Shown piece after piece: positions 16,144-23,054 of a DNA stretch of 64,000 bases (its first letter is position 1; the number at the start of each line of letters is the position of its first letter). This DNA is from an uncultured Planctomycetaceae bacterium (lineage in GTDB: Bacteria; Planctomycetota; Planctomycetia; Planctomycetales; Planctomycetaceae), in assembly GCA_903858815.1 (NCBI GenBank), contig CAIOKE010000331.1:1-64000 (forward strand), given 5' to 3'. The notes under the pieces are model-generated. The model had not been told where the DNA came from. It saw only the letters and a program-made list of their open reading frames with translations, and did no database searches. The translations under genes and the position numbers were made by a program.

Positions 16144-16180
16144 AAAATTCCTGCCACTGCGGCAGGAATTTTGGCGTTTT
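16144..16180 (+). terminator. Rho-independent terminator after the PilZ gene
   Basis: AAAATTCCTGCC (16144-16155) pairs perfectly with GGCAGGAATTTT (16161-16172), and GGCGTTTT follows. It rules out a start for the next gene at 16171. Confidence 0.85.
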
Positions 16181-16239
16181 GCGGTTACACTACAGGGCCA
16201 GTTTCCGCCCACCGCGACTTTTCACGGATCTCTGCAGAT

Positions 16240-18177
16240 ATGACCGCCCGGCAGGACTTTCGCCAGATTGAGCGTATCCCCTGTTTGATTCTCGCCAATT
16301 CCCGTGAGGCATCGCGGAAGGTTGCGGCTGAGATTGCTGGCCTGATTCGCATTCGCCAGGCGGAGGGTCGTTCGTGTGTGCTGGGCCTGGCCACTGGTTC
16401 GACGCCAACCGGCATCTACGCCGAGCTGGTGCGACTGCATCGTGAAGAGGGTCTGTCATTCCGCAACGTGATCACGTTCAATCTGGATGAGTATTACCCG
16501 ATGCAGCCTGAGGACGTGCAGAGTTACGTCCGCTTTATGCGTGAGCATCTGTTCAATCACGTCGATATTCCGGCGGGTGGCTGGAATGTTCCGGACGGCA
16601 CGGTGCCAGTCGAGCAGGTGGGCGATTACTGTCGCGACTACGAGGCTCGGATTGCAGCGGCTGGTGGGATTGACATTCAGATTCTGGGGATTGGCCGTAC
16701 GGGTCACATTGGATTCAACGAGCCGGGTTCCGATCAGACGACTCGCACCCGCATGATTACTCTGGACACAGTGACTCGAGTTGACGCGGCGGCCGATTTT
16801 TTTGGCACAGAGAATGTTCCGCGGCGTGCGATCACGATGGGTGTGGGTACGATTCTGGAAGCGCGGCGAATTTTTATTCTGGCGTTTGGTGAAAACAAGG
16901 CGACGATTGTTGCTCGCACAGTCGAAGGTGAAACGACTCCGGCGATTCCCGCCACGTGGCTGCAGAAGCATTCCCAGGTTCAGTTTCTGATGGATGCGGC
17001 GGCGGCCGCCAATCTGACTCGCGTTAAGCTGCCGTGGCTGGTTGGTGATGTCAGTTGGGACCCGCAGCTGATTCGGCGGGCGGTGATCTGGCTGTCGGAA
17101 AAATCGGGCAAGGCTTTGCTGAAGCTGACGGATTCGGACTACAACGAGGGTGGTCTGCAGGATTTACTGGCTGACCATGGATCGGCGTATGAGATCAACC
17201 TGAAGGTCTTTCGGCATTTGCAGAGTACGATTGTGGGCTGGCCTGGCGGGAAGCCGGCCGAGAAGAAAACGGTTGGTGACAGGCCGCAGCCGTTTGATCA
17301 TATTTTCCCCAAGCGAGTGTTGTGTTTTTCGCCGCATCCTGATGACGACGTGATTTCCATGGGGGGCACATTGATCAGGCTGGCTGCTCAGCAGCACGAA
17401 GTGCATGTGGCCTATCAGACATCCGGCAACATTGCGGTGTTTGATGATGACGCGTTGCGGTTTTCTGAGTTTGTGACGGACTACTGTGCGGCCTTTGGTC
17501 TGATATCGCCTCAGATCCGTGAGCTGGAAGACCATGTGGAAGAGTTTCTGCGGCGTAAACAGGCGGGTCAGGTTGACAGTGCTCAGGTGCAGATGATCAA
17601 GGGATTGATTCGTCAGGGCGAAGCTGTTGCCGGAGCTCGCTGCTGCGGCATTCCGAGGGACCAGCTGCATTTCCTGAACATGCCGTTCTACGAAACGGGT
17701 GGAGTGAAAAAGAAACCGCTGGGTGACGACGACATCCGGATCATTGTTGACTTATTGCGTAAGCTGAAGCCGCATCAGATTTATGCGGCCGGGGATCTGA
17801 CGGATCCGCATGGGACTCACCGAGTCTGCCTGAAGGCAATCTTCAGGGCGTGTGAGGTCTGTCAGAATGACGACTGGTATCAGGAGTGTGAAGTCTGGCT
17901 GTATCGTGGGGCGTGGCAGGAGTGGCCAGTCCATCAGATTGAAATGGCGGTCCCACTCAGTCCTCAGGAAGTCCGTCAGAAGCGAGATGCGATCTTCAAG
18001 CATCAGTCGCAGAAGGACCGGGCGTTGTTCCCGGGTTCAGATGCGCGGGAATTCTGGCAGCGAGCGGAAGAGCGTAACGCGGCCACAGCGAATCGTTACG
18101 ACAAACTGGGGCTGGCCGAGTATCAGGCGATCGAGGGCTTTGTGCGTTGGGATCGATCGTGGGGTCTGAACGACTGA
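16240..18177 (+). CDS. NagB-like glucosamine-6-phosphate deaminase fused to PIG-L/LmbE-type deacetylase
   Basis: This is a 645-aa two-domain protein. Residues ~10-270 are NagB-like: LGLATGSTPTGIYAEL (phosphate loop), FNLDEYYPM (Asp/Glu pair) and GIGRTGHIGFNEPGS with His156 and Glu161. Residues ~355-600 are a PIG-L/LmbE zinc deacetylase: FSPHPDDDVISMGGT (residues 363-377) and TDPHGTHRVC. NagB isomerises and deaminates glucosamine-6-P to fructose-6-P; PIG-L enzymes remove N-acetyl groups. In E. coli NagB the loop is NDGH with catalytic Asp141; here the matching residue is Thr154. The fusion type is known in other bacteria, so the change may be a subfamily trait. I chose ATG 16240 because the open frame upstream overlaps a terminator. 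Confidence 0.88.
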   Translation: MTARQDFRQIERIPCLILANSREASRKVAAEIAGLIRIRQAEGRSCVLGLATGSTPTGIYAELVRLHREEGLSFRNVITFNLDEYYPMQPEDVQSYVRFMREHLFNHVDIPAGGWNVPDGTVPVEQVGDYCRDYEARIAAAGGIDIQILGIGRTGHIGFNEPGSDQTTRTRMITLDTVTRVDAAADFFGTENVPRRAITMGVGTILEARRIFILAFGENKATIVARTVEGETTPAIPATWLQKHSQVQFLMDAAAAANLTRVKLPWLVGDVSWDPQLIRRAVIWLSEKSGKALLKLTDSDYNEGGLQDLLADHGSAYEINLKVFRHLQSTIVGWPGGKPAEKKTVGDRPQPFDHIFPKRVLCFSPHPDDDVISMGGTLIRLAAQQHEVHVAYQTSGNIAVFDDDALRFSEFVTDYCAAFGLISPQIRELEDHVEEFLRRKQAGQVDSAQVQMIKGLIRQGEAVAGARCCGIPRDQLHFLNMPFYETGGVKKKPLGDDDIRIIVDLLRKLKPHQIYAAGDLTDPHGTHRVCLKAIFRACEVCQNDDWYQECEVWLYRGAWQEWPVHQIEMAVPLSPQEVRQKRDAIFKHQSQKDRALFPGSDAREFWQRAEERNAATANRYDKLGLAEYQAIEGFVRWDRSWGLND

Positions 18178-18378: not shown

Positions 18379-20733
18379 TTACTGAGCTTTGGGGTCGGCT
18401 TCCATGCTGCCGGCGGTCACACCGACTCGACGCACGGGCAGAAATATACGCACGATGGTCTTTGGTGGCAGATCAGATTTGACTGTGGCGTCATTCAGCT
18501 TCACGGTGCAGAGTTCGGTTTCGGCCCAGCCGATCAGCAGTGCTCCATTGAGGTCGACCATGTCACTGACCTCATCACGTCGCAGGGTGTGGTTGTTCAG
18601 TTTCACAAACACCTGTCCTCCGGCTGACTGGTACAGCGAAGTCATCAGCAGGATATCCAGCGGATTACGAATTGAGATGTCCCACGGTCGAGAGACCTGA
18701 GTGCTTTGTGATTTGTTGATGTCGCGTTTTGCATCGGGGTTACGGACAAGGCGGACACCGCGCAGGAAATCCCGGACTTCCGAAATCCTGACGTTGCCAC
18801 GATGTCGTGTCCACGCGGACTGGGGCTGCAGGATTCGTTCTTCATCGCTGGCTCGATCTGCCGGTGCGTAAGCCCGATTGCCGCAGAACACGACCCAGTC
18901 ACGAACGGCAAATGGCAGGGCATGCTGAAACTCGCCTTCCAGCAGATCGCTGGACGGCAGGGTCAGGCGGGATTCAACAAGTGCAGCGGCGGGCGCTGAG
19001 GTGCGGACATCAGCGATCAGGCTGGTGGAGCCACCGGCCAGCAGCGGCACGGCACGGAATCCGGCAGGCTGCAGGTCACTGCGGCGACTGACCATCTGCC
19101 CCAGTCCTGCTCCACCCGGTCGATACATCCCACCAAAGATATCTTCTGCCCGCCCGCTCCAGCTGACCACTGACTCGGCCGTCTCGGGCAGCATGTTCTG
19201 CAGTGTTTCCGACGATTCCAGGTTGACGCTGGCGTACTGTGAGTCCTGTGTCGACAGGCTGGCCCACGTACGCACTCGGAGGTCCTGTCCCTGGTGATCC
19301 ACGGTGAGATCCAGCAGGCTGACAGCGCGGGACACGTCCGGAACTGTCGCTGGTGCTGCAGCTACGGCCAGCAGCAGGCAGGTGCTGCCGATGATCACAG
19401 GAAAGGTGGCCCACGTCAGTCGCGGTGATCGGAGTGTGCGGACGACCAGAAACCAGTCGAGCGGGCCGATCAAAGCCAGCAGGATGACCATCATCAGCAT
19501 CGCGTCCCATGTTGACCATCGCTGTTCTGCCGGAACTGCATCGACCGCTGCGGCCAGTTGAGTCGAGAGATCGCTGACACCGATGGACGAGATGCGTGTC
19601 CCGCGCTGGGATTGTTCGGCCGTGCCTGCCTCGGGACCAAACAGCAGTGTTTCCAGGAACTGTGACAGCGACAGCCATGTGTCGAGTGGGCGAGCATTGA
19701 CATCGACGGCCAGTATGGTGACGACGCCGGCCCCCACGACGGCTCGTGAAATCACCGGTTCATTCAAAGCCTGTGCCACAACTCGCGGCTGCCGCGAGGG
19801 AATCCGCAGACAGCGGACCGGGTTGCGATTGGTCTGCAGTGCGGTCGCTCCGAGGACAAAGTTCTGCACGGCGGTGAGATCCAGCGTTTCGTAGACTGTG
19901 TTCTCTGAGGGAATCTCAAAGATGGGCTGCAGCCACTGGCCGAGGGGAGACTGCAGCAGAGCCGGCCCACGTTCACCGCAGCTGATGACCAGATGACCGC
20001 CGCTGAGTACCCAGCTGCGGACTGCTGCCGTCTGTTGTTCCGTCAGGGCAAAATCCGACGCCAGCACCAGCAGTTCAAGGCTGTCCAGTCCGCGAGTTGT
20101 CGCTGGCAGTAATGCGGACTGCGCGGACTGCAGCAGCAGCAGAGGGTTCCGCCCACCCGGATCGGCGACGCGTTCACTGGCCAGCTCCTGCAGCCCAGCG
20201 ACGGGGCCGATGGCCAGCACTGGTACCGCCTGATGTCGATACAGCAGCAGTTGTTGAGCGACTGCTGGTGGCGATTCGTGCGGTGACCCGATGGTACCTT
20301 CACGACACTCGACACTGTGATTCCACAGGACTGTTCCGCCACCATCCGTCAGCTGCAGCTGCACTCGACCGTCGAGGCGTCCGGTGTTGAAGACAGCATT
20401 CACGATGAGGCCGCCGGCTGCATCGGACTGCCCAGCCGCCACCACGCTTTCGCAGACATCGCCGCGAGCATCGGGGGCCAGCACTGTCAGCTGCACTGGG
20501 GTGAGTGGTGTCAAACCCTGCAGTTGCAGGTGCAGGGGCAGCCACGCACCGACTCGACCATGCCCACCGAACCCGAGTTGCAGCTGGTCAACCGCCGGCT
20601 GTGCGGCGCGGGCTGCGACGGGTGTGGATGCCAGAGTCAGTATCAGAGCGAGGCAGCAGGCGATGCCGGACGGCAGCGAACGCAGTCGCTGAAGCTGAAC
20701 TTTTAAACAGTCAGAAGGGTGCCATGGAGCCAT
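18379..20733 (-). CDS. Large membrane protein with GATase-like domain, planctomycete-type hypothetical
   Basis: This 784-aa protein has an N-terminal export signal (ACCLALILTLASTPVAARA) and a beta-rich extracytoplasmic part. A segment that looks like a glutamine-amidotransferase-like Rossmann domain follows (LELLVLASDFALTEQQTAAVRSWVLSGGHLVISCG), with no visible catalytic triad. Two close hydrophobic helices lie in the middle (AMLMMVILLALIGPLDWFLVV and WATFPVIIGSTCLLLAVAAAP). A second soluble domain ends the protein. Such proteins often sit beside MoxR ATPase and DUF58 genes in planctomycetes; none are here. Function unknown. The ATG at 20733 has no clear ribosome binding site. Confidence 0.8.
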   Translation of the reverse strand: MAPWHPSDCLKVQLQRLRSLPSGIACCLALILTLASTPVAARAAQPAVDQLQLGFGGHGRVGAWLPLHLQLQGLTPLTPVQLTVLAPDARGDVCESVVAAGQSDAAGGLIVNAVFNTGRLDGRVQLQLTDGGGTVLWNHSVECREGTIGSPHESPPAVAQQLLLYRHQAVPVLAIGPVAGLQELASERVADPGGRNPLLLLQSAQSALLPATTRGLDSLELLVLASDFALTEQQTAAVRSWVLSGGHLVISCGERGPALLQSPLGQWLQPIFEIPSENTVYETLDLTAVQNFVLGATALQTNRNPVRCLRIPSRQPRVVAQALNEPVISRAVVGAGVVTILAVDVNARPLDTWLSLSQFLETLLFGPEAGTAEQSQRGTRISSIGVSDLSTQLAAAVDAVPAEQRWSTWDAMLMMVILLALIGPLDWFLVVRTLRSPRLTWATFPVIIGSTCLLLAVAAAPATVPDVSRAVSLLDLTVDHQGQDLRVRTWASLSTQDSQYASVNLESSETLQNMLPETAESVVSWSGRAEDIFGGMYRPGGAGLGQMVSRRSDLQPAGFRAVPLLAGGSTSLIADVRTSAPAAALVESRLTLPSSDLLEGEFQHALPFAVRDWVVFCGNRAYAPADRASDEERILQPQSAWTRHRGNVRISEVRDFLRGVRLVRNPDAKRDINKSQSTQVSRPWDISIRNPLDILLMTSLYQSAGGQVFVKLNNHTLRRDEVSDMVDLNGALLIGWAETELCTVKLNDATVKSDLPPKTIVRIFLPVRRVGVTAGSMEADPKAQ

Positions 20734-21107
20734 TGGAACGCCGAACGAAAGAGGTCGGACACGGGAATGTGGCGGTGTTTGGATGCGTCCTGCGGGTACG
20801 GAACACCGGCGTCATTTGCTGTTTTCGGCAGGAATCCTGTGGAAATCAGGACCTGTACAGTGAAATACGCTGAACCGCTGGAAATTGCGGGACAAAAACC
20901 CGGTGGAATCCTGAGCACTGTTTTTGTGATTTCCGGTGAATCCGCAAACAAAACTCGCCAGCCGCTCGAAAAGGTTTGTAATTTGGCGTGGATTCTGGCA
21001 AATTTCGGCGTTGATCGGCGTAGAAAGGTCGATTTGCATAGATTTCTTTGCTCAGTCCCGCTGACCGCGTGGTCAGGTGAATTTTCAGTCCCCGATGGAG
21101 GCCACCC
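20734..21107. other. Leader region of infC
   Basis: No gene is seen in these 374 bp between the divergent membrane-protein gene and infC. An inverted repeat CTGACC/GGTCAG (21061-21076) precedes the infC start by about 30 nt and could fold over the translation start region. Confidence 0.5.
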
Positions 21108-21110
21108 ATT
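21095..21110 (+). promoter_or_regulatory. infC: Ribosome binding site and AUU start of infC
   Basis: ATGGAGG (21095-21101) is followed after CCACCC by ATT at 21108-21110, in frame with the whole IF-3 gene with no stop between. An AUU start on infC is the classic basis of IF-3 autoregulation: the factor rejects non-canonical starts. The nearest in-frame ATG (21156) has no Shine-Dalgarno site. Confidence 0.75.
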
Positions 21111-21647
21111 AAACGAACTCGTCCGACACCGGCTCCTCAGTCCAACCTGCCCCGCATGAATGAACGCATCCGGATTTCTCCGATCCGTGTTGTGAGTGCG
21201 ACTGGGGAGATGCTGGGGGAAATGGAAACCGCGATTGCTCTGCGAATGGCCCAGGATGAGGGCCTGGATCTCGTGGAAGTCAGCCCGGATGCACGGCCTC
21301 CGGTTTGCCGTATCATGAATTACGGCAAGGTGCTTTATGAACGCACAAAGAAGTCTGGGGGTCCGAAGCAGCACAAGACTCAGCTGAAGCAGCTGCGTTT
21401 GCGTGCCAAGACGGGTCAGCACGACATTGACACGAAGGTGCGACAGGCTCGTGATTTTCTGTCCCGCAAGGACAAGGTGAAGATCAATGTGATGTTCAAG
21501 GGTCGTGAGAATGCGCATCACGAGCGTGGCATGGAGATGCTGATAGAGATTGTGAAGATGCTGGAGGACGTTGCCGCGGTGGAACAGCAGCCTAAGATGG
21601 AGAACGGCAAGACGGCGTCCGTCCTGCTGACTCCGCTGAAGCACTGA
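21108..21647 (+). CDS. infC: Translation initiation factor IF-3
   Basis: IF-3 binds the 30S subunit, prevents premature joining of 50S and checks start-codon pairing. The protein (179 aa from AUU) has the N-terminal domain ([49 protein letters not shown]) and linker plus C-terminal domain ([43 protein letters not shown]). It ends a few residues after VLLTPLKH. The start is placed at ATT 21108 because of a strong GGAGG and perfect frame; it adds a basic 16-residue extension ([10 protein letters not shown]) that many IF-3 proteins have. The usual partners rpmI and rplT do not follow. Confidence 0.95.
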
Positions 21648-21771
21648 GTCTGCTCTGCCGGGTAGAACACGAAATTCGGAGGGACAGTCGGCAGTTGGTT
21701 GCATGCGAGTGCACCTGTCTGCCGGCGGTCTTTGTGTCAGATCAGATTTCGCCGTTCCGGGAGAAACCCAC

Positions 21772-22464
21772 ATGGCTCAAACTGTAATGACCCGTTCTTC
21801 CTGGCTGGCCACAGTGTGTGGCTTTGCTGCTGCCGGTTGCGTGGATGCGGCAAATTCCGTGCTGCCTCAGGCTCAGGCGGCCGACGAGCCGGCGGATGAG
21901 AACAAGTCCAGTGCATCGGCAGCAAAGAAGTCAAAGGGCAAATCTGTGACTGAAGAAGGTCCGGAAGTTCCCGCGGAGTACAACAAGCTCAGCGAATTTG
22001 AATCGTGGGTGATTCTGCGGAAGGGGACTGAGCGAGCGTTCACGGGCGAGTACACGGATCTGAAGGATCCGGGCACCTACATCTGCCGTCGTTGCAACGC
22101 ACCGCTGTACGAGGCGAAGTCCAAGTTTGAAAGTCATTGTGGCTGGCCCAGTTTTGATGACGAGATCAAGGGGGCTGTTCGCAAGTCGCGGGACGCCGAC
22201 GGCTATCGTGTCGAGATTACCTGCGAGAACTGTGGTGGGCATCTGGGCCATGTGTTTTATGGCGAGGGGATGACCGCTAAGAATACTCGCCACTGTGTCA
22301 ATTCGGTGTCGATGAAGTTTGTTGCCGAGGGTGAAAAGCTGCCGGCTGTGGTGAAGAAGAAATCCCGTTCTCGTTCGTCGGCTCGAAAAGAAGCAGATGC
22401 TCCGGCTGACAAATCAGCGGACAAGCCAACCGACAAATCGGCGGACAAATCAGCCGACAAATAG
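21772..22464 (+). CDS. msrB: Exported peptide-methionine (R)-S-oxide reductase
   Basis: This 230-aa protein reduces methionine-R-sulfoxide in proteins. The N-terminus is a signal sequence ([21 protein letters not shown], a possible lipobox). The MsrB core has both zinc Cys pairs (CRRCNAPLY and [12 protein letters not shown]), HCGWPSFDD and the catalytic Cys in [12 protein letters not shown] Lys-rich linker and a repeated tail of DKSADKP/DKSADKS units follow the domain and may bind the envelope. I chose ATG 21772, which has GGGAG upstream; an in-frame ATG at 21703 would put 23 extra residues before the signal. Confidence 0.92.
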
Positions 22465-22535: not shown

Positions 22536-23054
22536 ATGCGTGAAACTCCGGAAGAACTGACAGCGTGGCATGAAGCGGGGCATGCGTGGGCAGCCCTGCT
22601 GGCGGGTGCAAAAGTGCACTCCGTTTCGATTGCTCCGGACAACGATGATGGACCGCAGCGTTTTGGTGACACGGAGATTCATTGGAGCAAGCGTCGATTT
22701 TCCGGCCGGAAGCTGGCGGCAGGTCTGTGCCGCGTGGCCCTTGCCGGCCCGGTATCAGAGATGCTGTATACGGGGCGTCCATTTCATCCGGCTGGTGTTG
22801 CCGAGTGGGCTCAGGACTGGCGGACAGCATTGCAGGCGCTGGACTTTGTGCCTGATCGGCAGCGGCGTCTGGCGATGCTGGAACAGACGACGATTCAGCT
22901 GTACGAGAAGTTTTCGGACGATTTTCACTGGCAGGCGGTGAGTGCGATTGCTGAGCAGTTGCTGGCGCATGAGATTCTTGATGCGGAGCTGCTGGGGGAG
23001 GCCGTTGAGCCGTGGGTTGACAGTCTGGACTCGGAATCATCGTTTGACGATTAA
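22536..23054 (+). CDS. Stand-alone M41 (FtsH protease-domain-like) metallopeptidase
   Basis: This 172-aa protein carries the zinc protease motif in TAWHEAGHAWAALLAGAKVHSVSI, closely resembling the start of the FtsH peptidase domain. RKLAAGLCRVALAGPVSEML follows, which matches the FtsH region after the active site. The AAA ATPase and transmembrane parts of FtsH are absent, so it cannot unfold substrates by itself. The third zinc ligand may be the Asp in AQDWRTAL, but this is not certain. It lies between msrB and argG, each separated by more than 70 bp. Confidence 0.75.
   Translation: MRETPEELTAWHEAGHAWAALLAGAKVHSVSIAPDNDDGPQRFGDTEIHWSKRRFSGRKLAAGLCRVALAGPVSEMLYTGRPFHPAGVAEWAQDWRTALQALDFVPDRQRRLAMLEQTTIQLYEKFSDDFHWQAVSAIAEQLLAHEILDAELLGEAVEPWVDSLDSESSFDD

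Follow-up and report, generated by a model that had tools for sequence, protein, structure and literature searches.

Translation initiation factor IF-3 represses initiation at non-canonical start codons, and its own gene, infC, begins with ATT in E. coli and with ATC in Streptomyces, which gives rise to a feedback loop (PMC5472188). Repression by IF-3 is described there for AUU and AUC in E. coli and, with the Streptomyces factor, for a GTC start, and the AUU start of E. coli infC together with IF-3 autocontrol goes back to Butler et al. 1986 and 1987 (cited in PMC5472188 and PMC1780047). The infC start is ATT in B. subtilis as well (PMC1805508, PMC6097659), and in S. aureus an initiation peak of the gene was measured at AUA (PMC13009471). 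The factor demands Watson-Crick pairing for the first and second bases of the codon and accepts wobble for the third (PMC10158994). The E. coli operon infC-rpmI-rplT is named in PMC2837039. An earlier note on the DNA studied here had called AUU starts the known means of IF-3 autocontrol, which PMC5472188 bears out for E. coli. The infC of our window (the whole stretch of 64,000 nt that was analysed) resembles that of E. coli in having AUU behind a strong Shine-Dalgarno (SD) sequence and an N-terminal extension before the xNxxIR motif; it differs in that the E. coli gene heads the infC-rpmI-rplT operon whereas ours stands apart, and in that feedback has been demonstrated in E. coli whereas here it would follow from sequence likeness. 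The ATT start is also shared with B. subtilis, where, as the sources above describe it, L20 attenuates the gene along with rpmI-rplT through a leader RNA, whereas the window infC is separate and carries no Rfam L20 leader. Streptomyces (ATC) and S. aureus (AUA) share a non-canonical ATH start but differ in the third base. Our main reading, to which we give a probability of about 0.88, is that the window holds an ordinary infC with an AUU start behind a strong GGAGG, which was split from rpmI-rplT in an ancestor of its clade and is controlled by the start codon. The AUU start of infC being a textbook phenomenon and mostly ordinary here, the picture of IF-3 control is unchanged; what is gained is the extension of a well-known start-codon control to a phylum for which we found no account of the infC start in the literature searched (by titles, with most subscription papers outside the search).

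Contig C331, one of 373 in a genome of 6.39 Mb (99.4% complete), carries the window, and infC occupies positions 21108-21647 of the forward strand (179 aa plus the stop, TGA at 21645-21647). Its product matches the equivalog profile TIGR00168 with 172.1 bits against a cut-off of 60, as an orthologue of IF-3 should; both Pfam IF3 domains (PF05198 and PF00707) are present, and in a profile search of the genome it was the one IF3_C match. The sequence from 21095 reads ATGGAGGCCACCCATTAAACG. In it, ATGGAGG (21095-21101) contains the GGAGG of the SD (21097-21101), followed after a spacing of 6 nt by the ATT at 21108-21110, from which the frame is open into IF-3, as the earlier note had it. An in-frame TGA (21078-21080) leaves only 27 nt of open frame 5′ of the ATT, in which no ATG, GTG or TTG occurs. 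The next canonical start codon in the 3′ direction is the ATG at 21156-21158 (the Met of MNERIR), the canonical choice of a gene finder, which we read as an internal Met. With that ATG annotated, 16 residues would be lost from the corrected N-terminus (the initiator Met and the 15-codon extension at 21111-21155). It may be noted that the pattern GGAGG-N4-8-ATH by itself is not above chance: the window contains 28 instances, shuffled sequences 22.8 +/- 4.9, and 14 of 100 shuffles reach 28; the motif alone being at chance level, it is comparison with relatives that secures the start.

For this comparison an IF3 match was found in 141 of 150 genomes of the family and 142 infC loci were placed. 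Seven IF3 matches without a placeable N motif (L138, L064, L149, L118, L134, L129 and a second L060 frame) were dropped, and the family counts omit L297, a repeat of L165; L261, a divergent second infC of genome G319, was counted outside the window's clade. The best start was taken as the SD-backed codon at a spacing of 4-10 nt among seven known start codons (ATT, ATC, ATA, ATG, GTG, TTG and CTG). By this rule all 46 loci of the clade that includes the window start with ATT (29) or ATC (17) and none with the other five codons, so that an ATH codon in frame behind an SD is kept in 46 of 46. The aligned ATT/ATC is preceded at 5-8 nt by GGAGG or a longer anti-SD match in nearly all of them, a few having a shorter SD (AAGGA, GAGG). 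Between the upstream in-frame stop and the ATH codon, 28 of the 46 loci, the window included, contain no ATG, GTG or TTG (one with an open frame of 3 nt). The best start in the other 96 family loci was ATC in 77, ATT in 3, ATA in 1, TTG in 5, ATG in 2, GTG in 1 and CTG in 1, with no SD in 6, the rule being mechanical and single short-SD assignments liable to err (for example TTG in L251 and L252, with the family ATC further on). The trait is therefore not universal, ATT, ATC or ATA failing to be the best start in 15 of the 96. Four cases (g4, g8, g221 and g241) appear by eye to be true ATG starts. Also, ATG or TTG has apparently replaced the ATH start in some genera of the family (L201, L206, L207, L211, L213, L243, L260, L274, L105 and L110), and these offer a natural contrast for IF-3 autocontrol.

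Among named loci, 28 of 28 (L003-L030) have ATT or ATC as the first codon of the alignment, closely preceded by an SD, and ATT, ATC or ATA is best in 42 of 44 drawn mostly from other groups (L038-L082, of which L040 belongs to the own family). Outside the family the same three codons are best in 27 of 42 phylum loci; unplaceable IF3 matches, the duplicate genomes L123, L126, L130 and L297 and 11 own-family rplT loci were left out of this phylum and named census. The proposal of the earlier note that infC starts at AUU and not at the ATG of MNERIR is upheld by this survey of other planctomycetes and by the coding signal given below, and we consider the ATT at 21108 very probably the start. A scan allowing any codon behind an SD was also made and set aside as its spacing rule is too loose: the best codon in the window was then a TTC, 8 codons 5′ of the ATT and behind AGGTGA, while codon 2 (AAA) was best in 8 of 11 loci of the genus and 17 of 142 of the family, ATC or ATT being best in 78 of the 142. 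The ATT result thus depends on admitting near-cognate start codons only, at 4-10 nt from the SD.

If the window gene behaves as in E. coli, IF-3 would disfavour initiation at AUU or AUC and so slow its own production as its level rises, while the basal rate of infC translation would be set by the strong SD. Such autocontrol is the simplest reading of the locus and we hold it to be a sound one, with start-codon discrimination by the window IF-3 being assumed. All 46 clade loci retain the residues Y75, R99, K110 and R133 (numbered as in E. coli), while R116 and R147 of E. coli are D and E in the window protein and mostly E or D in the clade; some of these six residues presumably matter for discrimination or 30S binding. 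Across the family, acidic or other residues were seen at the R116 and R147 positions. It could be argued from the divergence of these two IF3_C residues in the family, and from the several genera that have ATG or TTG starts with no evident harm, that the AUU start is used without feedback and merely keeps expression low and constant. We consider this unlikely: ATG is one base away and yet the clade of 46 shows only ATT or ATC, the four residues named first are invariant, and the repression by IF-3 of AUU and AUC in E. coli and of GTC in Streptomyces (PMC5472188) speaks for feedback.

A start at the ATG of MNERIR (21156), with the codons upstream belonging to the 5′ UTR, has in its favour that the codon is canonical and conserved, as a canonical codon occupies this site in 45 of the 46 clade loci. 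Yet the window has no ribosome-binding site before this ATG, as the earlier note had remarked, and at 4-10 nt before the corresponding codon an SD-like 4-mer is missing in 39 of the 45 loci and present in 6 (AAAG in 3 and AGGA in 3). The five nearest genera provide 27 loci; omitting 4 with longer extensions, we also calculated codon constraint for the other 23 over the 17-codon stretch to the conserved N. The mean pairwise differences at positions 1, 2 and 3 of codons 2-17 are 0.238, 0.142 and 0.446, which is coding-like, against 0.646, 0.648 and 0.586 in the 51 nt before the ATT, which is noncoding-like, so that in these 23 loci codon periodicity and coding constraint set in at the ATT/ATC codon. 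Column shuffles gave a third-position share as high as the 0.540 of codons 2-17 in 10 of 20000 cases, a figure to be taken as a guide only since related sequences are not independent. The 15 codons upstream of the ATG keep KR-RP..PQ..PR and vary mostly at third positions, and E. coli IF-3, with its longer N-terminus, aligns through the MNERIR position. That the ATT/ATC site is conserved in the clade and that the protein-coding signal begins there is strongly supported by these alignments, and a start at 21156 is correspondingly very improbable. Hardly credible is a 5-codon upstream frame (ATG GAG GCC ACC CAT TAA, 21095-21112) that would couple termination to AUU initiation through the overlap of its stop with the ATT, because this arrangement of the window recurs in the genus only in L298 and L299 and is absent from the other 8 of the 10 further loci, and because its ATG lies across the infC SD and has no SD of its own.

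Returning to the main reading of an ordinary AUU-started infC split from rpmI-rplT, the position of the gene outside the infC-rpmI-rplT cluster was confirmed, since rplT of the same genome lies on another contig (C311:64838-65158, reverse strand). The order of open reading frames there is rpmI-rplT-pheS on one strand (rpmI and pheS recognised by eye), while infC is followed by msrB and not by rpmI or rplT. An L35 signature was found 5′ of rplT in 40 of the 40 stretches around rplT that were retrieved for the clade, which indicates that infC left and rpmI-rplT stayed together. On dividing the 142 family loci by linkage of infC to rplT, 67 were linked, 66 apart and 9 in neither class; 19 of the 66 were set apart from coordinates, and the evidence is weaker for those with the two genes on different contigs. 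In two genomes of one contig each, infC and rplT lie 5.8 Mb (G326, 8.9 Mb, in coordinates) and 5.2 Mb (G024, 6.4 Mb) apart. A quickly built tree of 145 IF-3 rows recovered the window's clade (46 rows, SH-aLRT 98) with 42 loci apart, none linked and 4 in neither class, and required a minimum of 10 linkage changes over all its branches, 55 of the 126 inner branches being poorly supported. Two infC copies per assembly were observed in G319 (L261 and L281) and G409 (L288 and L296); in the tree L261 falls among the outgroup rows, which makes foreign contigs in the bin likely.

The phylum at large was compared through the best 149 of 280 and best 149 of 275 matching genomes, ranked by E-value. Among these matches, 65 of the 73 genomes from outside the class have rplT within 3.5 kb downstream of infC, while inside the class the two genes are linked in 1 of 9 genomes from the own family and in 0 of 3 from other families. 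The separation had been called unusual in the earlier note, and this holds outside the class, where 8 of 73 of the best matches by E-value are not linked, but not within the family, where 66 of 142 loci are apart. As no locus of the clade is linked against 65 of 73 genomes linked outside the class, the separation is a genuine and old trait derived in the lineage, shared across the clade and not specific to this genome. We would thus place the departure of infC from infC-rpmI-rplT in an ancestor of this clade within the family, with rpmI-rplT staying together elsewhere. The AUU/AUC start has persisted in the split clade and in several further apparent splits, and this provides sequence evidence that the start codon was retained when the operon broke. 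By start class, loci that are apart comprise 61 with ATH and 5 with other starts, and linked loci 59 and 8, the supported branches offering only 2 independent pairs; L251 and L252 (as ATC) and L105 (as other) were assigned by hand. We lean, by a modest degree, towards taking the AUU/AUC start in Planctomycetaceae as a self-contained IF-3 control that has outlived the break-up of infC-rpmI-rplT, from which a few genera, linked or not, have switched to ATG or TTG. If true, the family would be a natural experiment in which the autocontrol of IF-3 is parted from control by L20, rpmI-rplT having a promoter of its own.

The leader and presumed promoter region of infC (20734-21107, forward strand) lies between a divergent gene of 784 aa and infC itself. 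Since the 784-aa gene runs the opposite way, infC must have its promoter within this region and would be transcribed from it; with a promoter of its own, control would rest on the start codon alone and not on transcription shared with L35 and L20. A sigma-70-like site was not found upstream of infC. A block at 20970-21008, some 100 nt upstream of the start codon (GTTTGTAATTTG...TGGCAAA), is partly conserved in the genus and is without an assigned promoter type. There was no Rfam match near threshold at 20600-21800, the L20 leader included, and the fold around the infC start (z-score 0.96) is no more stable than shuffles. No L20 leader was found at the gathering threshold in seven rplT or linked loci either (L308-L312, L243 and L199), and an RNAalifold consensus of the rpmI leaders was empty. 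Upstream of rpmI, by comparison, 21 of the 24 loci from the five nearest genera carry a promoter-like pair, a TTTACA- or TGGACT-like element followed after about 18 nt by TATACT or TATAGT, as against 0 of the 15 loci beyond them, the pattern having been written after seeing the alignment and 1 of 40 loci (L333) left out. A TATA(C/G)T-type hexamer occurs there in 32 of 39 loci against 1153 of 3900 shuffles. The loci concerned are L318-L338, L351-L353 and L350, the last being the own genome (C311), where the pair begins about 270 nt before rpmI.

As for the genes downstream, which lie outside the proposed mechanism, the earlier note had named msrB and a protease. The first is well identified as an msrB-like methionine-R-sulfoxide reductase (21772-22464, forward strand; NF004036, 204 bits against 179), but the second is a putative zinc metalloprotease-like protein with HEAGH (22536-23054, forward strand) whose match to PF13398 (M50B) is only marginal (26.5 bits against 26). 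Within the stretches examined, all 10 other loci of the genus have msrB after infC, against 0 of 131 other family loci. The protease-like gene was found in 3 genus loci, argG in 2 and the divergent 784-aa gene in 4, these counts being limited by stretch length; none of the three was found near infC in the 131 other family loci over the stretches examined. As the msrB/protease neighbourhood is confined to the own genus, it is recent and gives no hint about IF-3 function. Elsewhere in the window, an open reading frame of 668 aa (16171-18177) shows a glucosamine-6-phosphate isomerase domain fused to a PIG-L deacetylase domain.
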